DNA from: a virus
DNA: 31,066 nucleotides
IMG/VR virus record: IMGVR_UViG_3300042458_000289
Location: 1 to 31,066 of that record
Strand: one strand, 5' to 3'
The notes under the pieces are model-generated. The model saw only the letters and a program-made list of their open reading frames with translations. It was not told the origin of the DNA and ran no database searches. How positions within the stretch are numbered: the first letter of the stretch is position 1; every line of letters starts with the position of its first letter. Positions 4,352-31,066 of the stretch are shown piece after piece. A program made the translations under genes and the position numbers.

Positions 4352-4550
4352 AATACTTGAAAAATTTGATATAGAACTCCTCGTTCACTGGATGACCTTT
4401 CAAGAATCTCCACAACTGAAGGTAAGTAATTCCCATATCTTCAGCGATATGTGCTAATTTGTATCTCTTGGATACTCGTGACCTCACCTCTCTGTCGATG
4501 AAGTCACGAATGGTTTCCCCATCAGAAAGGTGAATCGTCAAAGCTCTCAT
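4341..4550 (-). CDS. Small helix-turn-helix protein
   Basis: 69 aa from ATG at 4550; a TTG codon lies one step upstream, and the ATG is preferred. Residues ~30-55 (YKLAHIAEDMGITYLQLWRF followed by LKGH) have the spacing of a helix-turn-helix, as in Cro/XRE-like regulators, and the N-terminus is basic (DREVRSRVSKRY). It overlaps the end of the SSB-like gene by 29 bp. It is a candidate phage transcription regulator, but its target cannot be told from sequence. Confidence 0.6.
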   Translation of the reverse strand: MRALTIHLSDGETIRDFIDREVRSRVSKRYKLAHIAEDMGITYLQLWRFLKGHPVNEEFYIKFFKYYER

Positions 4551-4824
4551 CAACTACCGGCATTGAATTAATATTCCACACATCCAAAGTATTATAATAC
4601 TTCCCATTGTATTCTCTTCCTCTCAGATTGAATTTCACTGTGATTGGAATACCAGGTGAATAGTTCTCGATTAGTTTACACTTGTCTTGAGCCAATTGGA
4701 AGATGACATCCTGAGGATACTCTCCATTAGGTACGGTTAGGACAAACATTCTCACTGAGAACTTGTCGCTGATTTGCTTGATTGGCTCAATTACTTTGAT
4801 TGTGCCTGTTACTGTTAATTCCAT
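4522..4824 (-). CDS. DUF3127-like OB-fold protein, probable ssDNA-binding protein
   Basis: 100 aa. It matches the layout of the Bacteroidota DUF3127 family: MELTVTGTIKVI, a central PQDVIFQLAQDK strand pair, then VKFNLRGREYNGKYYNTLDVW. This is a small OB-like barrel. The last residues, DESFDDSPF, look like the acidic C-terminal tail of bacterial SSB (DDxPF), which recruits repair proteins. Together with ERF and exonuclease genes upstream, a role in covering single strands during replication or recombination is likely (inference). The start is preceded by an AAACAAAACAAG leader with no Shine-Dalgarno site. Confidence 0.7.
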   Translation of the reverse strand: MELTVTGTIKVIEPIKQISDKFSVRMFVLTVPNGEYPQDVIFQLAQDKCKLIENYSPGIPITVKFNLRGREYNGKYYNTLDVWNINSMPVVDESFDDSPF

Positions 4825-4842: not shown

Positions 4843-4867
4843 GTTACTATTTGGTAAGTTACTATTT
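4843..4867. repeat. Tandem 10-bp repeat GTTACTATTT
   Basis: GTTACTATTT occurs at 4843-4852 and 4858-4867, 15 bp apart, between the 34-aa gene and the SSB-like gene and overlapping the stop of the former. It may be an operator or chance in AT-rich DNA. Confidence 0.5.
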
Positions 4868-4970
4868 AGAAAGCTCCCTTAAATATCTGCGATGCGATGG
4901 CGGTGCCAACCAATGTCAATGATATCGCCATGACTATAAGAGTGATGAGTGCGCATATCTTCTCTTTCAT
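4866..4970 (-). CDS. 34-aa membrane peptide
   Basis: ATG at 4970 lies in the ATGA overlap with the upstream gene and inside the repeated junction sequence. The product, MKEKICALITLIVMAISLTL and 14 more residues, has one hydrophobic segment (about 5-27) and could be a single-pass membrane peptide. The junction-linked start argues that it is translated. Function unknown. Confidence 0.5.
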   Translation of the reverse strand: MKEKICALITLIVMAISLTLVGTAIASQIFKGAF

Positions 4971-4980
4971 TGTTCTTGTT
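4967..4980 (-). repeat. Junction repeat AACAAGAACAATGA, copy 1
   Basis: On the minus strand the core encodes the final QEQ codons and the TGA of the 117-aa gene and supplies the ATG of the 34-aa gene. Six copies of this core occur in 1.1 kb, each at a gene junction. Confidence 0.85.
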
Positions 4981-5320
4981 GTAAAATATCAAGTTCTTTT
5001 CTTACTGATTTCCAATACAATCTATCTTCGGGGTAGTGTAGGCAATCACTTTCAATAATTGTATCTACTGCTACTTGTGCTGATAATATAGCGTTATCAC
5101 ATTCTCTGCAACTAAAATTAAATTTATCTACTAATTCTTTTGCTTGTTCTTTTGTTGTTGATTGTTTCTTTTTCATTTTATGTTTGTTTAATTGTTCGGG
5201 TTCACAATTAGAAATAATACTATTTATTGCTTCTGCGTGACAATCTTCTGCGCTTACGCAACATTCATCATCACATTGTGTTTTGGTTTGTGGACATATA
5301 TATACTATATCTTCTTTCAT
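4967..5320 (-). CDS. Cysteine-rich hypothetical protein
   Basis: 117 aa. The N-terminus is cysteine-rich (ICPQTKTQCDDECCVSAEDC, then SNCEPE), with another CREC motif at about 71-74 and a late C near 95. Several CxxC-like pairs suggest zinc binding, but no named fold is clear. It ends LQQEQ, as do its upstream neighbours, because the last codons lie in the junction repeat. AT-rich codon use, like the rest of this small-gene cassette. Function unknown. Confidence 0.65.
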   Translation of the reverse strand: MKEDIVYICPQTKTQCDDECCVSAEDCHAEAINSIISNCEPEQLNKHKMKKKQSTTKEQAKELVDKFNFSCRECDNAILSAQVAVDTIIESDCLHYPEDRLYWKSVRKELDILQQEQ

Positions 5321-5330
5321 TGTTCTTGTT
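5317..5330 (-). repeat. Junction repeat AACAAGAACAATGA, copy 2
   Basis: At the join between the 52-aa and 117-aa genes; the extended match is AAACAACAAGAACAATGA, identical with copies 3, 4 and 6. Confidence 0.85.
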
Positions 5331-5475
5331 GTTTAAGTTCTTCTAATTCTTGTTCTTTTTGTAATTTTAATTCTTGTAGGCCTTCAATAACTTTTTTCAA
5401 ACGCCTAATCTCAAATTCTTCAAATGTTAAAGTATTATCAAAATATTCAATGCTAAGAGATTCTATTATTTTCAT
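5317..5475 (-). CDS. Short coiled-coil protein
   Basis: 52 aa from ATG at 5475, sharing ATGA with the upstream stop. Sequence MKIIESLSIEYFDNTLTFEE, then a long charged helix (RRLKKVIEGLQELKLQKEQE) and the end LEELKQQEQ. Heptad-like leucines suggest a coiled coil, possibly dimeric. Same junction-repeat start and end as its neighbours. Function unknown. Confidence 0.6.
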   Translation of the reverse strand: MKIIESLSIEYFDNTLTFEEFEIRRLKKVIEGLQELKLQKEQELEELKQQEQ

Positions 5476-5485
5476 TGTTCTTGTT
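5472..5485 (-). repeat. Junction repeat AACAAGAACAATGA, copy 3
   Basis: At the join between the 71-aa and 52-aa genes; the extended match TTTAAACAACAAGAACAATG also occurs in copy 4. Confidence 0.85.
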
Positions 5486-5687
5486 GTTTAAATATTTTGT
5501 TAAATTTTTCAAATTCTAATTCACAATATTCTTTCCCAAATTCAATAGGAGTCATTCTATATGCTATTGAAAATATAGATTTTTCCCGTTCCTTCTCCAT
5601 TTCTTTGGCTTCTGCTAATTCATTAGAGTATTTACAAACATCTTCTAAAGACATTTTCTCAATTAGTTGGTCTACTGCTGTTTTCAT
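5472..5687 (-). CDS. Hypothetical helical protein
   Basis: 71 aa, largely helical and charged (EDVCKYSNELAEAKEMEKER), ending FNKIFKQQEQ. It shares the internal stretch KEMEKE-like with the 82-aa protein at 8202-8450 (KAKEMERKQKLERQ), which may mean the two are distant relatives. Start and stop both lie in copies of the junction repeat. Function unknown. Confidence 0.6.
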   Translation of the reverse strand: MKTAVDQLIEKMSLEDVCKYSNELAEAKEMEKEREKSIFSIAYRMTPIEFGKEYCELEFEKFNKIFKQQEQ

Positions 5688-5697
5688 TGTTCTTGTT
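5684..5697 (-). repeat. Junction repeat AACAAGAACAATGA, copy 4
   Basis: At the join between the 67-aa (5684-5887) and 71-aa (5472-5687) genes. The overlapping ATGA gives stop and start in four bases. Confidence 0.85.
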
Positions 5698-5887
5698 GTT
5701 TAAATTTGTCTAATTGCTCATCTGTAAATTTAATACCAAGAGCATCTTCAATTTGACTAATGGAAGTAGTCCATTTTTTAATAACAGAACCACCACCCCA
5801 AGGTTTTGCACCACAAATTCTTGTGTCATTTAGGTAAATAGAATCACCTTCTACACCATTTACTAATTCTAAAATTATATTTATCAT
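5684..5887 (-). CDS. Hypothetical protein
   Basis: 67 aa, MINIILELVNGVEGDSIYLN at the start, a glycine-rich PWGGGS turn near the middle, then a helix ending LDKFKQQEQ. Probably alpha/beta. It begins in one junction repeat and ends in another. A short stretch, WTTSISQIEDALG, resembles WSTSISQLEERVG in the sigma-like protein at 2858-3403, suggesting a shared segment. Function unknown. Confidence 0.6.
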   Translation of the reverse strand: MINIILELVNGVEGDSIYLNDTRICGAKPWGGGSVIKKWTTSISQIEDALGIKFTDEQLDKFKQQEQ

Positions 5888-5897
5888 TGTTCTTGTT
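5884..5897 (-). repeat. Junction repeat AACAAGAACAATGA, copy 5 (short form)
   Basis: This copy lacks one CAA unit (GATAAACAAGAACAATGA), so the upstream protein ends DKQEQ and not KQQEQ. Confidence 0.8.
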
Positions 5898-6099
5898 TAT
5901 CAATGTGAATTAAAAAACTTGTCTTCCGTTTTATTGTAGGAAACTGATTCAATAGCCATAAGGTCAACTCGTCTTTTTCTGAGTCATCAATGTGGAATTC
6001 TGCATAGGTATGCACCTTATGTCCTTGTAGGATTTCATCTTGTTGTAAATGCTGTGGAATATCCGACAACTTAATTACTGATTTTGTTATTCTTCTCAT
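5884..6099 (-). CDS. Hypothetical protein
   Basis: 71 aa starting MRRITKSVIKLSDIPQHLQQ and ending SFLIHIDKQEQ. The start at 6099 lies in the junction-repeat copy that follows a tiny reading frame (MITKQQEQ, 6096-6122). No recognised motif. It has the same AT-rich composition as the rest of the cassette. Confidence 0.6.
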   Translation of the reverse strand: MRRITKSVIKLSDIPQHLQQDEILQGHKVHTYAEFHIDDSEKDELTLWLLNQFPTIKRKTSFLIHIDKQEQ

Positions 6100-6109
6100 T
6101 GTTCTTGTT
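6096..6109 (-). repeat. Junction repeat AACAAGAACAATGA, copy 6
   Basis: It precedes the gene starting at 6099. No full gene ends here, only an 8-codon frame MITKQQEQ from ATG at 6122, which could be the stub of a deleted gene. Confidence 0.8.
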
Positions 6110-6154
6110 GTTTAGTTATCATTTCTATTTAGTTTATGTGGTAAAAATTGCCAC

Positions 6155-6337
6155 TTATCCTTTAAAGGTTTCATCATTATCTACCCACTCATCCACTATT
6201 TCAAGATTTCCACTAAAAGAATATCCAGTAGCTTTTAAAAGTCCTTCAATCATTTGTAAAGCTTCGTCTAGAGTTACATCGTTATGAGGTACTTCGTGGG
6301 TGATTTTGTGTTCGTATTGTTCTATCGTTATTTTCAT
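6155..6337 (-). CDS. Hypothetical protein
   Basis: 60 aa, MKITIEQYEHKITHEVPHND, then a helix (LDEALQMIEGLLKATGYSFS) and an acidic end (DEWVDNDETFKG). Small proteins with this pattern occur in many phages of Bacteroidota, of unknown role. Its ATG overlaps the stop of the exonuclease gene by four bases. Confidence 0.65.
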   Translation of the reverse strand: MKITIEQYEHKITHEVPHNDVTLDEALQMIEGLLKATGYSFSGNLEIVDEWVDNDETFKG

Positions 6338-6951
6338 TTCGCTTCCAATAATTTATAATACTCATTATAATACTCAGTACACAATTCCAATCTCTCAATC
6401 ATCTCCTTCTCCTTCTCCTCATCACGATCAAATGAAAGTACGGTGATTCTCTTCTCCGGTGCGATGTGGTCAACGCGGTGAATATCTAAGTTCTCCCACT
6501 CGTTCAGTAGCTCGTTGGATGTAGTTACCATGCAATAGATTAACTCTGCCTTAGGTTTGTCGTATAGCCTCATGTAAGCTCTCAACTGCCACTCATAGAT
6601 TGCATCATATCCATCCTCTGCCATCACTGGAAAGGTATCCAATGACCAGGATGTTTTGATATCGATGATTGAATCGTTGGTGATGATGTCTGCCTCACCG
6701 GTCATCAGCTCATCAACCATTCGCACGGTGTTCTTGACGTACCCCTCGAATCGCACGGTGTTAACTAGGTCGATTGAATCCTGCTCTTGCATTAATCCTT
6801 TTTGGATGTACTTATTGTTGATTTGACTGCGGTATCCGTAGAAGTTTTCCTTAGCAACTTGCTTGATGTAACTCTTCGCAGTTGCTCCCATTTCATTTTT
6901 ACCTCGGCCATTGGTCATCAACTTGCCGATGGAGGATGGATGCCACTTCAT
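6334..6951 (-). CDS. PD-(D/E)XK exonuclease (YqaJ / lambda-exonuclease-like)
   Basis: 205 aa. The motif order fits the YqaJ/RecB-like family: E56 in KGLMQEQDSI, D88 in GEADIIT, D97-x-K99 in IIDIKTS, and Q122 in EWQLRAYM. The fold degrades one strand of double-stranded DNA 5'-3' to give overhangs for annealing. It is next to the ERF annealing gene (4-bp overlap), the standard two-part phage recombination system. The length is short but in range for phage versions. The start MKWHPSSIGKLM carries the usual opening HxSSxxxLM-like segment. Confidence 0.85.
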   Translation of the reverse strand: MKWHPSSIGKLMTNGRGKNEMGATAKSYIKQVAKENFYGYRSQINNKYIQKGLMQEQDSIDLVNTVRFEGYVKNTVRMVDELMTGEADIITNDSIIDIKTSWSLDTFPVMAEDGYDAIYEWQLRAYMRLYDKPKAELIYCMVTTSNELLNEWENLDIHRVDHIAPEKRITVLSFDRDEEKEKEMIERLELCTEYYNEYYKLLEAK

Positions 6952-7469
6952 ACTTCTAATGCTTTAAGTTGTACCTCAGTCAATGTCCATTTCTCAATCA
7001 ATTGCTCCTTTGTGTACTTTCCTGCTTGAATGGATGCCACTGCGGATTCGAATCTCGCATTGTCCAACGCAGGTTTAACCGGTGCGACTGCAATCGATGC
7101 TGCCTTTCCATCATCATCCACTGCCTGAAGCGAAAGAAGTGATTGCAATGTACCTCTTCGGAAGTAAGTCACCGCACTCAATACCTTTTGTGGATCAGTA
7201 ATAATCGGTAAGGTCATGAATGACTCAACCATCTCACCCGAATCGATGTCAATGATTCTCGTCACCACATCATTCCCAACTATTGGCTGAAGTAGAATCA
7301 ATCCATTCTCCAATAGAATCGGCTCGACTGCGGTGAGCAGTGCATTGATGTCGGCATATGACTTTTTGAAATGTGGATTCGTAGCATTCTTTGCTACCTT
7401 TCCAATCTGCTGCTTAGCAGTGTGCAACTTTTGATACAGCGTTGCGACTGTTTTCGTGTTCTTTTCCAT
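6948..7469 (-). CDS. ERF-family single-strand annealing protein
   Basis: 173 aa. The N-terminal ~125 residues match ERF: LYQKLHTAKQQIGKVAKNAT, NPHFKKSYADINALLTAVEP, then SAVTYFRRGTLQSLLSLQAV and DDDGK. The C-terminal ~45 residues (EQLIEKWTLTEVQLKALEV) form a short helical tail. It anneals complementary strands made by the partner exonuclease downstream and may bind the SSB-like protein. The start at 7469 is preceded by AACACGCTAAATA, one copy of the ACGCT pre-start element. Confidence 0.85.
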   Translation of the reverse strand: MEKNTKTVATLYQKLHTAKQQIGKVAKNATNPHFKKSYADINALLTAVEPILLENGLILLQPIVGNDVVTRIIDIDSGEMVESFMTLPIITDPQKVLSAVTYFRRGTLQSLLSLQAVDDDGKAASIAVAPVKPALDNARFESAVASIQAGKYTKEQLIEKWTLTEVQLKALEV

Positions 7470-8450: not shown

Positions 8451-10837
8451 ATCTCCTTTGCTTTATTGTTTAACTCATCCCAAATATCATCCGGATCACT
8501 TGGTGTTTTATCGGTCCTTCCGTATTCAATCCATCTCCGGTTGTTTGTTTTATTCTCAGTGATTTGATGTCCATGATAATGCCCAAAGATACTCAGCCAT
8601 TGAGAGAATTTCTTTTTGCTCAGTTTAGCATAATCAGTATACTCATTAGTGAAGGCCTCATGAAGCTCGTCTTTGTACAACCGTACATTGATAGGAAGAT
8701 TCCCATCATTGGACCAATCGTAAAACTCAAAACAAGTTTCCTTGATGAATTTACGCACATCTAGGTTGGTGAATTCATGAGATACCAATCCATTCTTGAG
8801 ATAATATTGACAGCATTGAATCATGAAGTTATCAAAGATTATCCATTCCTCATCATTCCAATCATCAAACAACATATGACCGAACTCATCCAATGGTGAT
8901 CGTGTGTGACCAAAATAGTTGCTCATCTCCACCTCGAATTTTCTTCTCTCGAATGAGCCTCCCACTCCACCAATCGTGTAATTGGTTGTGATGATTATCT
9001 TGGGAGATTTGTTCACTGGTATCTTGATGGCATCCTGCCCTTTGTATTCCAATGTGATTCCCTCAGTAATCAATGAGAAGAGATTCTCAAAGTTGAAGTT
9101 CTTTTTAACATCATCAAACACAAGGAGCTGAGTATCGGTTGACACTGTTTGATAAGGGAATCCCTTGGTGAATTCAAATGTCTTTCCATCAATTGATGCT
9201 ACCTTTTTTAACTTAGCCAATGCATTCCAAAACAATCCCTTTCCACTTCCTCCATTCGGATTCTCTGAGATGGTTTCATCGTTGAATATTATTGCCTTAT
9301 TACTCGCTGAGGTCTTGTATGAATGCATCAAATATCCAATCACCGACTTGAATGAGTTGTACTTCGCTGAATCTTTACCACTTACCAACCATAGGAATGT
9401 TCTAAACTCACTTTTATGGTGATCACTAGCAATATATTCTCGGTCAATTATCTGCCTCTTCCATACATATCCATCCAGGTCAATATACTCATGCTTAAAT
9501 ATGCCTTGCTTGGTAATTTCCACCGCACAATTGCGATAATATAAATAACACTTATCCGCAGTATCCTCCATCATCTCAACTTGAGCACTGTCCAACATGG
9601 AAAGGAATTCGGATGTGAAGTATTTGGTCGCACCTGCCATCAAATCATACGGTTGGAATCCAATCTCCTCCCTCGACAATAGAGAGCTGAGGGTGAAATC
9701 CTTGATTCTCTTCTCATTGGTTTCCTCAATTAGATTCTGCTCCTTCTTAATGAATGAGTAAGTATTAGAATCAGCAGGAAAGTATTTAAAAAAGTTGTTT
9801 TGTTGGAGCCAAAACTTGTATTGATGTATGCTGAGTTGAATTCGATTCTGATTGTTATAAGTCCAAAAGTCCTCGATGTTTCCCGTTTCCTTGATGGCAT
9901 CAACGCACTTCTCAACTTCATCTTGAGTAAACTCCGGAAGTATCTTGATGATATCGTTGGTTTTTTTACCTGCTCGAATGTGTTTTTCAATCTTCGCCCT
10001 GGATGTATTATCTTCGAAGTACCTGGTCCCGAATTGAGAGGTCTTGGAATATGCTGATTTGATTATCTTTCGAATCTCATTCTCTTTCCCTCCTTCATCA
10101 AAGCGAAGCATCACATTCTCGCATTCAGTTTTCTGAATTCCAAAGTCATTGAATGCAGCTGCAAGTTTGAATAGGTTGTTATTCTTCTCACCTGGCACCA
10201 TTCCATACTTCCGTTCCCACCATTTCATCAAGTTATCAATGATACGGTTGTCCGATTTGATTGGAATCATTACATCCATTGAGCCAATTTCCTCAATCTC
10301 CGGCTCCTCGATTTGAGTCCACATGATTGAATCTTGGTTGATGTAAATATCCGGATCATATGACTCAAAACAAAATCGGTCAAGGTTACTCCCTGAACTA
10401 TCCCAATAGTCCGAATCAAAGTAAGTTCTCAAGGCATCGAAATATCCTTTGAAATCTCCCTCAGTTGGAATCTTGACCAATGCCTTCACTCCTTTTCCGC
10501 TTGGTGATATCCATGCACTGAAAACATAGTTGTTGAACATCAATGCGTCCTTGAATTGAATTGCTTCAGCGGTGTGACTCATGTTATCAAAGTCCAATAT
10601 CATTAATCCGGACCTTTGTTCGATACCTTTTACTGAGCGACTCTTGAAAGTCCCATTGAAGCAAACTCCAGGAAGCTGATTCTTGTATTGTTTTTGCTCA
10701 TCCTTAGTTGCACAAGCTCTGATTTGTTCAACCAATTCCTTTGACTTACCATCTCGAATTCTTTCAAGACAATAAAGAGCTGATTTGTTGAATGGATTTG
10801 TGGTATCCGTTACCTTCTTAAAAATTGATACGATCAT
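8447..10837 (-). CDS. Primase-helicase: BT4734/VirE_N-type primase domain with SF3-like helicase
   Basis: 796 aa. The N-terminal ~180 residues fit the BT4734-like/VirE_N domain of archaeo-eukaryotic primases: GLMILDFDNM with D82 and D84 as likely metal ligands, then SPSGKGVKALV (111-121). Residues ~190-330 are a helical linker. The C-terminal half is an SF3/D5-like helicase: Walker A NPNGGSGKG (526-534, K533), Walker B LLVFDD (571-576), sensor PKIIITTN (612-619) and an arginine finger near R631-R632. It would prime and unwind at the phage origin; no phage DNA polymerase is seen, so host polymerase is presumably used. The start overlaps the HNH gene stop (ATGA). Confidence 0.9.
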   Translation of the reverse strand: MIVSIFKKVTDTTNPFNKSALYCLERIRDGKSKELVEQIRACATKDEQKQYKNQLPGVCFNGTFKSRSVKGIEQRSGLMILDFDNMSHTAEAIQFKDALMFNNYVFSAWISPSGKGVKALVKIPTEGDFKGYFDALRTYFDSDYWDSSGSNLDRFCFESYDPDIYINQDSIMWTQIEEPEIEEIGSMDVMIPIKSDNRIIDNLMKWWERKYGMVPGEKNNNLFKLAAAFNDFGIQKTECENVMLRFDEGGKENEIRKIIKSAYSKTSQFGTRYFEDNTSRAKIEKHIRAGKKTNDIIKILPEFTQDEVEKCVDAIKETGNIEDFWTYNNQNRIQLSIHQYKFWLQQNNFFKYFPADSNTYSFIKKEQNLIEETNEKRIKDFTLSSLLSREEIGFQPYDLMAGATKYFTSEFLSMLDSAQVEMMEDTADKCYLYYRNCAVEITKQGIFKHEYIDLDGYVWKRQIIDREYIASDHHKSEFRTFLWLVSGKDSAKYNSFKSVIGYLMHSYKTSASNKAIIFNDETISENPNGGSGKGLFWNALAKLKKVASIDGKTFEFTKGFPYQTVSTDTQLLVFDDVKKNFNFENLFSLITEGITLEYKGQDAIKIPVNKSPKIIITTNYTIGGVGGSFERRKFEVEMSNYFGHTRSPLDEFGHMLFDDWNDEEWIIFDNFMIQCCQYYLKNGLVSHEFTNLDVRKFIKETCFEFYDWSNDGNLPINVRLYKDELHEAFTNEYTDYAKLSKKKFSQWLSIFGHYHGHQITENKTNNRRWIEYGRTDKTPSDPDDIWDELNNKAKEI

Positions 10838-11313
10838 AACGAATTTAATTTATTTTGATATGCTAAATGGGCATCGTATTCATTAGTGAATAATCCTAAG
10901 TAATATTTTTTACCATTTATGATAATAGATGCTCTCCATTTTTTATTATCTTCTTGCCAATGCACACCTGTATATTTAGAGGTAGATTTTATATGCTTTT
11001 TATTAGCATTTTCTCTTTGAGTTACAATTCTTAAATTTTCTACCCTATTATCTAATCTATTATTATTTATGTGGTCTACAACTAATTTTAATCCGCAAGG
11101 CTTATGATTTAAAAATGATTCAGCAACTAATTGATGAATGTCTCTTGTGATAGTTTTGTTATCATAAAGCCCAACAATAAAATAACCTCTTGTTCCTATT
11201 CTTTGCTTTAAAATAAGTTCTTTATTAAACCTTAAACTTTTTACTTTACCATATGAGCTAACCTCATAAACTCCTTCAAAATTTGGAATTGGTCTCCATT
11301 CTTCTTTTTCCAT
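10834..11313 (-). CDS. HNH homing endonuclease (NUMOD4-HNH-AP2)
   Basis: 159 aa. NUMOD4 at residues ~4-30 (EEWRPIPNFEGVYEVSSYGK), HNH core ~58-97 with H60, D80-H81-x-N83 and N85, N93 and R95, and an AP2-like DNA-binding end ~112-155 (STSKYTGVHWQEDNKKW..LGLFTNEYDAHLAY). It nicks or cuts DNA lacking the element so that it is copied in by repair. It is free-standing, with no intron borders seen. It is clearly richer in A+T than the primase gene it precedes, a sign of later insertion, and it overlaps the primase ATG by four bases. Confidence 0.9.
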   Translation of the reverse strand: MEKEEWRPIPNFEGVYEVSSYGKVKSLRFNKELILKQRIGTRGYFIVGLYDNKTITRDIHQLVAESFLNHKPCGLKLVVDHINNNRLDNRVENLRIVTQRENANKKHIKSTSKYTGVHWQEDNKKWRASIIINGKKYYLGLFTNEYDAHLAYQNKLNSL

Positions 11314-19947: not shown

Positions 19948-20925
19948 TTAATTATTAGAATTTAAAAATTTGCTAACTGCACTAAACTTGTCATGTGCCG
20001 ATAATTTTGTTTCAGTCATTTCAACTTCATCTTCAGTTTCAGTGACTAACATTTCTTCCATTTGGTTGCGAAGGTCAGCGATCAATGCGATGATTGCTTT
20101 CTCTCTCTCCTCAAGAATCGGTGTAACGATTGCAAGGATAGCTTCAGCATCCAATGCGGGATCAACTGCCATTTCTTCCTCAACTGCATCTTCAACAATT
20201 GGAGCTTCTTCCTCAACAACTGTTTCTTCGAGTGCAACTTCTTCCATTGCAACCTCTTCCATTGCCTCTTCGACAACTGGTGCATCCTTAATCTCAATGA
20301 TTTCGCCATCCACTACAACGTAGATTTTGCCATCGATTAAGTGCTCCCCATCAGGTAATTTGTTCATGTTATATTTATTTAATTGATTACTTAATTTTAA
20401 ACCAAGGAATCCTTCAATTGAGAATCCCACCTGGTCATTGGCAACCAATTCAGCATAATACTCTTTATCAGTTATCTGAGCAGTTACCATCAATGTTCCT
20501 TTTGGAACTTCAATACCAAATGTTGAGAATGCCTTATCTTGTTTTGGATTATCAACCACCCATGTTTCAAGGATATATGCAGGAACTGTCTTGGATGTGT
20601 CATGTTCCAGGTTGAATAGGTCGCGATTGCGAAGGTCACTCATGAACTTCTCATGAATCTTCGCGATTGTTTCCTCAGTGAATTGCACATAGTATTCTCC
20701 CTCCTGGTCATCCTTGCGATATATCTCCATCGGTATCATGGCAGGTGCGGTGATTCGATACTTTAAGTCATCAGCGAATATCATTCGTTGTGCTTGTTCG
20801 AATGCCATTCCTTTCACCTTGATTGCCGGTTGAGAAGTGAATGCAATCTGCTCAATGCCCAAATCTTCTCCATCGGAGTATTCGGGATCAATAGTGATTT
20901 TGTAAATTGGCAAATCTTTGGTCAT
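19948..20925 (-). CDS. Prohead protease (S78_2/XkdF-like) fused to acidic scaffold
   Basis: 325 aa. Residues ~10-180 fit the XkdF/Peptidase S78-type prohead protease: IEQIAFTSQPAIKVKGMAF, then FNLEHD with H108 and VGFSIEGF with S169 as the likely catalytic pair, in the usual His-then-Ser order. Residues ~215-265 are almost pure E/V/A repeats (EEAMEEVAMEEVALEE..), then a coiled coil (EAILAIVTPILEEREKAIIA) and a short basic-polar end (KFSAVSKFLNSNN), a typical scaffold that contacts capsid protein and is cut away during maturation. The start is preceded by the TCTTAATATA element. Confidence 0.85.
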   Translation of the reverse strand: MTKDLPIYKITIDPEYSDGEDLGIEQIAFTSQPAIKVKGMAFEQAQRMIFADDLKYRITAPAMIPMEIYRKDDQEGEYYVQFTEETIAKIHEKFMSDLRNRDLFNLEHDTSKTVPAYILETWVVDNPKQDKAFSTFGIEVPKGTLMVTAQITDKEYYAELVANDQVGFSIEGFLGLKLSNQLNKYNMNKLPDGEHLIDGKIYVVVDGEIIEIKDAPVVEEAMEEVAMEEVALEETVVEEEAPIVEDAVEEEMAVDPALDAEAILAIVTPILEEREKAIIALIADLRNQMEEMLVTETEDEVEMTETKLSAHDKFSAVSKFLNSNN

Positions 20926-29721: not shown

Positions 29722-31066
29722 TTAAATTGATGTTACTACTTCCCAACCCGATGCACCACCAACTACTAACTTACTCAATGTACTATCGTAAATTAAAGCA
29801 CCTTTGACGTATGTTGGTCGTGAACCCGTTGCGTATTGTTGTAAGTTTACTCTACCTCTTAAAATTGTATCTACTATTGAAGTATTTCCAAGTGTTGCGG
29901 TGTTACTTCCCGCACCGATTGCATTGTGTCCAATTACTATTTGATTCGTTTGTGAATTGGCTAATGGTCTTGCGGACATCCCCAAAAACACGGAGTTATC
30001 AGAGCTAGTTAAATTAGTTACTCCATCGGAAATATATCTACCCGCTTCCGCTCCAACCGCAGTATTTAAACTACCACTTGTAATATTTCTTAAACTTGAA
30101 TTACCTACACCCGTATTGTTTGTTCCATTAGTACCACCTAAAGAACTAAATCCAATGGCAGTATTTGCACTTCCACTTGTTAAAGCATTTAAAGTAGAAG
30201 AGCCAACCGCAGTATTTGAAGTACCCGATGAATTATTTATTAAAGCTGCTAATCCTATTGCTACACTATTTGTGTTTGCACCGCCTCCGAGTCCTACGGT
30301 CATACCTTGAATAGTCGCTTGACCTACCACCCTCGCAGTACCATTAACGTCAAGCTTGAATCCTGCGTCTGTGGTGGTGTTGATTAGGACGTTGCCCGCT
30401 AAATAGGTGGATGTTGTTGATGAGTTACCTATCCAAGTTCTGTTTGATACGTTGTTAACTACTCCCGTACTCCAATTACCAATAAAAATATTGGAACTTC
30501 CCGTTGTATTAACATTTCCTCCACCTTCTCCAAATGCAATGTTTGCAGTTCCCGAAGTATTATTTTCCATTGCACTATTTCCGATTGCAATGTTACTTGC
30601 TCCCGTTGTTGACCTTAATGCCTTTCTTCCAAATGCACAATTTCCCGAACCCGTTGAATTTAGTAAAAGTGTTTCAAATCCAAATGCCGTGTTTGATACT
30701 CCCGTTGTGTTGGCGTTTAATGCAGTAACTCCGACTGCGGTGTTTGTCGCTCCTTGCCCTCCACCTAATCCAATGTACAAAGTATTTATAACTGCATCAC
30801 CGATTATTTGAAATCTATTCGTGGAATTGTTCCACGTGATGTTAGCTGATTCTTGAACTACATTTCCCGTACCTTCAAACAACACACGTCCAACAGTACC
30901 CGAAGTGATTGCAGTCGTACCGATTGTGATTCCCGTGCTTACCGTGAATGTTCTATCTGCTGATAGGTCTTGTGTAGTTCCGTTTATTGTTAGGGTGCGA
31001 GTTGTTGGGACTTTACCACTTAACGCAGTATTTAAGTCAGTTTGTGCGGATAGTGTTCCCGTGATA
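29722..31066 (-). CDS. Tail fibre protein A with two beta-roll domains (5' end beyond window)
   Basis: 447 codons plus a stop are in the window and the frame stays open to the right edge, so the true start is outside. The first visible part repeats the N-terminal domain of fibre B in the same frame; if it shares all of it, the whole protein would be ~504 aa. Then a beta-roll with NTAVGxxAL..TTGxxNxAFG repeats, the DAGFKLDVNGTAR cassette, a second beta-roll (NTNSVAIGLAAL..TSGSANTAIG) and a C-terminal tip YDSTLSKLVVGGASGWEVV. YadA-like rolls bind surface ligands in other systems. A V in GRVLFEG is GTG (30885) and is an internal codon, not the start. Confidence 0.85.
   Translation of the reverse strand, partial: ITGTLSAQTDLNTALSGKVPTTRTLTINGTTQDLSADRTFTVSTGITIGTTAITSGTVGRVLFEGTGNVVQESANITWNNSTNRFQIIGDAVINTLYIGLGGGQGATNTAVGVTALNANTTGVSNTAFGFETLLLNSTGSGNCAFGRKALRSTTGASNIAIGNSAMENNTSGTANIAFGEGGGNVNTTGSSNIFIGNWSTGVVNNVSNRTWIGNSSTTSTYLAGNVLINTTTDAGFKLDVNGTARVVGQATIQGMTVGLGGGANTNSVAIGLAALINNSSGTSNTAVGSSTLNALTSGSANTAIGFSSLGGTNGTNNTGVGNSSLRNITSGSLNTAVGAEAGRYISDGVTNLTSSDNSVFLGMSARPLANSQTNQIVIGHNAIGAGSNTATLGNTSIVDTILRGRVNLQQYATGSRPTYVKGALIYDSTLSKLVVGGASGWEVVTSI
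30331..30398. repeat. 68-bp exact repeat shared by both tail fibres (copy in A)
   Basis: Identical to 100-167. Encodes the DAGFKLDVNGTAR cassette that joins two different beta-roll modules in fibre A. Confidence 0.9.
30940..31066. repeat. 127-bp exact repeat at the right end (copy in A)
   Basis: Identical to 583-709 and ends with the window. Upstream of 30940 the two copies differ at several positions, so this is a real paralogue or allele boundary, not simple terminal redundancy. Confidence 0.9.

Follow-up and report, generated by a model that had tools for sequence, protein, structure and literature searches.

In anatomy, the closest described counterpart of the sequence considered here is the Start-Associated Sequence (SAS), known from cluster K mycobacteriophages and cluster EF Microbacterium phages (PMC3203893, PMC7302621). 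Like the connector described below, SAS is short and asymmetric, occurs in many copies per genome in one orientation, placed at the ribosome-binding position of genes that are non-structural and unrelated, is conserved past the ordinary needs of initiation and can have the upstream stop fall inside it; it also has a Shine-Dalgarno core, mostly follows gaps of more than 50 bp and often has an upstream inverted repeat. In effect, the counterpart is the T4-type PeSL (Arbiol 2010; Comeau 2014), which in the accounts given by PMC4503421 and PMC3950731 is a promoter-terminator cassette, combining an early promoter with a stem-loop terminator, and like the connector a short intergenic motif, present repeatedly, at sites where small genes are shuffled, a process that it is believed to mediate. 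Short module-border homology for recombination has also been proposed for the conserved boundary sequences of lambdoid phages, as the concept is presented in PMC3029335. Integron cassettes, like the array dealt with here, form a chain of promoterless genes with a common separator element, there an attC-like folded site. Lambdoid boundary sequences are few and gene-specific; the connector, unlike them, joins many unrelated genes serially by one sequence. A preliminary description of this locus knew of no named element like it, which holds in part: the anatomy of SAS (PMC3203893) and the effect of the T4 PeSLs (via PMC4503421) were already known, while the connector lacks features of both systems that are compared below. 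In the part of the open literature covered, we found no description of such a connector in Bacteroidota phages.

The window, by which we mean the whole 31,066-nt stretch analysed, is a 31-kb virus record of a tailed phage, for which the primase, terminase and BT4734-type domains suggest hosts among the Bacteroidota. Near-identical repeats at its ends (15-709 and 30331-31066) probably stem from a single repetitive tail-fibre-like gene that the record ends split, in which case the genome would be circularly permuted. On the minus strand, on which all features of the locus lie, six small genes stand head to tail with an exonuclease/ERF pair on one side and an SSB-like gene on the other. The preliminary description was correct that AACAAGAACAATGA has six copies, all exact, with starts at 4967, 5317, 5472, 5684, 5884 and 6096, and it occurs nowhere else in the window. 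With up to two mismatches allowed there is a single extra weak match, at 20785 within another gene, while the shuffled window gives a mean of 0.93 matches and a maximum of 4; the shuffles and the same-composition permutation control given below rule out a chance origin. The sequence stands at every junction of the six-gene array, and each copy contains the ATG of the downstream ORF. Five of the six also carry the last codons and stop of the preceding gene. The claim that every copy ends an upstream gene fails for the one at 6096, where what ends is not a real gene but an eight-codon minicistron, MITKQQEQ and a stop (6096-6122), about 32 nt past the end of the gene at 6155-6337, the stop overlapping the ATG of the first cassette.

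The connector copies were placed by sequence match. The first (6096-6114) is the leader of a 71-aa cassette (5884-6099, family F13), without a Pfam match and at most 86% identical at the amino acid level to relatives in other phages. The second (5884-5902), with one CAA fewer, leads a 67-aa cassette with no assigned function (5684-5887); the third (5684-5702) leads a 71-aa cassette of the MKTAVEWL-type family F9 (5472-5687). Behind the fourth (5472-5490) and fifth (5317-5335) come cassettes of 52 aa (5317-5475, F14) and 117 aa (4967-5320, F15), which the relative L138 has in another order, the former at 98% nucleotide identity and the 3' part of the latter at 94%. The sixth (4967-4985) precedes a 34-aa small hydrophobic, putative membrane protein (4866-4970), the last gene of the array, with no connector behind it. 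Compared with one another within the window the cassette genes gave no similarity; the preliminary description had called them unrelated. To the right lies the SSB-like gene (DUF3127, 4522-4824), kept in relatives; to the left are a gene for a 60-aa protein (6155-6337, F2) that is connector-led in other phages, the phage exonuclease (phrog_5715, 6334-6951) used as the anchor for finding relatives, and an ERF single-strand annealing protein (6948-7469), a candidate recombinase. In most connector-bearing relatives the array head, TAAATAGAAATGATAACTAAACAACAAGAACA, stands before differing first cassettes. Directly before the head there is a short inverted repeat, GTGGTAAAAATTGCCAC (6137-6153), also present in relatives (inverted in L148, GGGG/CCCC in L153, broken in several); it may be a hairpin or an invertible loop.

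In a wider viral set, 262 non-redundant copies give the full element as TTAAACAACAAGAACA followed by ATGA, or in a longer rendering (T)TAAACAACAAGAACA followed by ATGA. The 14-nt core given at first was too short: positions -15 to -13, outside the search pattern, are 87-94% conserved across these copies. Among the matches listed, more than 120 viral stretches contain the 16-mer ACAACAAGAACAATGA, many in two to five copies, at most five being exact in any one stretch, and connector arrays of two to six copies are common, whereas a permutation of the same letters, ACAAGAACAACAATGA, is found in 97 stretches of the whole viral collection, only one of which has two copies. The contrast recurred when identical 12-mers ahead of gene starts were counted de novo. 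All copies lie on a single strand in 117 of 117 multi-connector contigs; an ORF of at least 25 codons, or one running off the contig, is opened by 248 of the 262 copies; and of the occurrences of AACAAGAACA in connector contigs, 296 run directly into an ATG and 22 do not. As to the upstream gene, its stop is a TGA overlapping the ATG in 116 of the 262 and a TAA at -15 in 42, which sets the connector apart from the gap-following SAS; the third frame, without a stop in the element, is used in only a handful.

Is it then the encoded tail that is conserved? In the 52 copies where the upstream gene has already ended, conservation from -15 onwards is 87-100% per position. Copies without a coding role being as conserved as coding ones, the constraint is on nucleic acid, DNA or RNA, and not on the QEQ tail, and a protein-level explanation through a conserved KQQEQ tail is ruled out. 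A host-derived or prophage origin was set aside as well, since the 19-mer has 12 matches in 84,980 prokaryote genomes, each single and mostly in unrelated phyla, which look like chance. Among named phages there was no DNA match to the array region and no match to the 60-aa and 71-aa proteins; short connector queries found one diverged junction, in Tenacibaculum phage Gundel_1, a further match in Flavobacterium elemo phages being discounted for lying within a coding region and not at a gene start.

Conservation greater than initiation requires, in copies that precede only a set of small genes on one strand, is also what a binding site for a trans-acting factor would give, with a phage protein or small RNA co-regulating the array genes, as proposed for SAS. 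We regard this as unlikely: no candidate regulator was found, the carriers are phages very different in size and gene content, and, as described below, cassettes occur with two different connectors. Such a site would be compatible with the dual role that we favour.

The connector's proposed place in translation fits the published rules of initiation without Shine-Dalgarno in Bacteroidota, where A at -3, -6, -12 and -13 raises translation in Flavobacterium johnsoniae (PMC6847099). The array genes have A at -3 and -6 in six of six and at -12 and -13 in five of six, against 16-30 of the 40 other window genes at these positions; four of the six window copies have all four, compared with four of the 40. 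Start regions of the array genes fold more weakly (mean -0.33 vs -1.53 kcal/mol), weak folding being, like the A positions, among the determinants measured in F. johnsoniae (PMC6847099), and are essentially unfolded, unlike the PeSL stem-loop terminator as that is summarized in the accounts cited above. Nor does the consensus TTAAACAACAAGAACA have AGGAG, the Shine-Dalgarno core which SAS has. The Bacteroidota promoter consensus, TAnnTTTG or TTG-N15-23-TAnnTTTG, is absent from the coding strand of 4866-6122, and a promoter role was rejected; the connector, which would act at the level of translation, differs here too from the PeSL with its early promoter, as those same accounts have it.

If the element were only an optimised start of this kind, with illegitimate recombination moving the cassettes and selection keeping working starts, its identity would reflect translational selection and not the use of homology. 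The Kozak-like pattern of A positions agrees with this, as do boundaries that are all gene boundaries and a second connector, with equal A positions, that does the same job. Against it, at least 15 positions are nearly invariant, whereas reports credit about four with an effect on translation, and a permutation just as rich in A hardly ever recurs within a contig; moreover, with all four A positions in just four of the 40 other window genes, such optimisation is not generally needed. We consider this account rather improbable.

That small cassettes are added or lost by way of the connector, as the preliminary description proposed, survived scrutiny on the points where it might have failed, in that relatives have or lack units as wholes, and the core recurs in many other phages, some with an exonuclease or terminase only about 30% identical to that of the window. 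Among 36 loci encoding relatives of the window exonuclease, zero to seven connectors, or units in relatives whose flanks are nearly identical, lie between the same flanking genes, the cassettes differing and being reordered, and the genes beyond the array are constant where loci extend far enough. The nearest relative, L127, shares 1987 nt with the window with one mismatch and diverges at +5 of connector 6, after which it has one additional cassette and connector; the L127 contig stops shortly beyond these, and re-entry is not visible. L144 matches the window to +3 of connector 1 and resumes at -12 of the last connector, with five units between these points in the window and one in L144. L128, L129 and L146 have an empty site, the leader TAAATAGAA-ATG being joined directly to the 34-aa closing gene. 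Left-flank identity ends away from connectors in 83 of 207 pairs, which are non-independent and many of which trace to L157/L054 and L147.

Exchange reaches much further. Many connector contigs have an exonuclease only about 30% identical to that of the window, some of them still with cassettes 70-97% identical in protein, and phages otherwise unrelated share cassettes at 95-100% identity, often with the connector at the cassette borders. DNA blocks common to unrelated contigs tend to start at -15 and finish just after ATGA: both ends lie at connectors in 11-14% of 174 blocks (pairs being non-independent) against 1.2% under random placement, and unrelated contigs share 34 non-redundant blocks at least 95% identical, of which 30 have their end and 17 their start at a connector of one member or more. 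L114 and L124, for instance, are 100% identical over 248 nt starting at -15. A repeat immediately 5' of the starts of unrelated genes in one orientation is a trait that the connector shares with SAS, and an association with small genes gained and lost from phage to phage is one that it shares with PeSLs; unlike SAS, it lies at the limits of units exchanged across phage groups.

The commonest cassette family, with an MKTAVEWL N-terminus and a very variable remainder, has 79 members on 66 contigs and is often present twice per array. Function searches with ten family representatives returned one thioredoxin, one protein with a DUF and otherwise blanks, the MKTAVEWL representative being a splice of two members, so that its blank result says little. 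Thioredoxin is a connector cassette in two phages, L009 and L021. In L007 (11332-12466) a three-cassette block has a second identical copy that starts at a connector, with 15 nt shared before the ATG, and reaches the contig end; this 483-nt internal duplication is either a tandem duplication or an assembly effect. Assemblers can be misled by repeats, and short repeats misjoining metagenome contigs would mimic shuffling, for which the L007 case at a contig end could be adduced. As a general explanation this is scarcely credible, since identical array orders came from independent samples (L138/L139, L137/L140/L141, L144/L145 and L054/L157) and misassembly is an unlikely source of six exact copies in one record.

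In place of the first connector, relatives L151 and L156 carry CCTTTAAATCAGAATAAG followed by ATGA. This second connector, TTTAAATCAGAATAAG followed by ATGA with the tail FKSE and a stop, is found in those two and in at least about 110 other viral loci, sometimes on contigs that carry both types; the consensuses of both have A at -3, -6, -12 and -13, and the second plays the same role as the first. Since 22 cassette families are found with either, a cassette can change its connector, something that crossover between identical connectors alone does not explain. The leaders AAAAATAAAAGTT-ATG and AAAATAAGAGAT-ATG, each kind seen three times within a contig (L009, L358, L364), hint at further connector types.

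Taken together, we think it probable that the connector is a Kozak-like start without Shine-Dalgarno, with a stop-start overlap, that doubles as short homology for cassette exchange. At the RNA level TTAAACAACAAGAACA and its ATGA would be a complete translation start in a Bacteroidota host that dispenses with Shine-Dalgarno pairing, offering the upstream gene a TGA over the ATG (tail KQQEQ and a stop) in one frame and a TAA at -15 in another, so that termination-reinitiation would translate the next gene regardless of which gene precedes it; translational coupling is what this arrangement suggests. At the DNA level the connector is the sole sequence common to unrelated small genes, and copy-to-copy crossovers could insert, delete or reorder whole units, from ATG through connector, with expression unharmed. 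Likely agents would be two products of genes beside the array, the ERF annealing protein and the exonuclease of the phage itself; phage annealing proteins, an Erf among them, beat RecA in recombining diverged sequences (PMC3945230). That the element is itself the substrate of crossover, rather than a by-product of selection, has points against it. Random joining followed by selection would also be expected to give breakpoints at gene boundaries, and such breakpoints are ambiguous because each gene boundary here carries a connector. Moreover, 15-20 nt of homology is short for Red/ERF-type recombination.

Whole-unit mobility could also suggest that, as in integrons, a site-specific recombinase or a homing endonuclease acts on the element and moves the cassettes, and a putative HNH-like gene, named from its sequence, lies elsewhere in the window (10834-11313). 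That gene is outside the array and was detected in few connector contigs, there is no recombinase gene among the cassettes examined, and the site is asymmetric, without inverted arms; we hold this to be very improbable. No attC-like folded site accompanies the connector, no integrase was recognised among the part of the window's proteins compared with Pfam or PHROGs, and exchange here likely goes by general annealing recombination, unlike that of integrons.

More tentatively, and with some doubt on our part, at least two interchangeable connectors could serve as docking homology and stop/start adaptor for a pool of small genes shared among phages, a recombinase-free, translation-coupled cassette system. 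If so, any small gene could join the chain at any point and be expressed immediately, across diverse Bacteroidota phages. The connector offers a simple search pattern by which small accessory genes can be found in phage metagenomes, and Bacteroidota genetics gains in it a candidate translation connector. Phages trade in small genes, and about 19 nt of defined sequence delimit the traded units across many phage groups, making the idea of dedicated exchange junctions directly testable.
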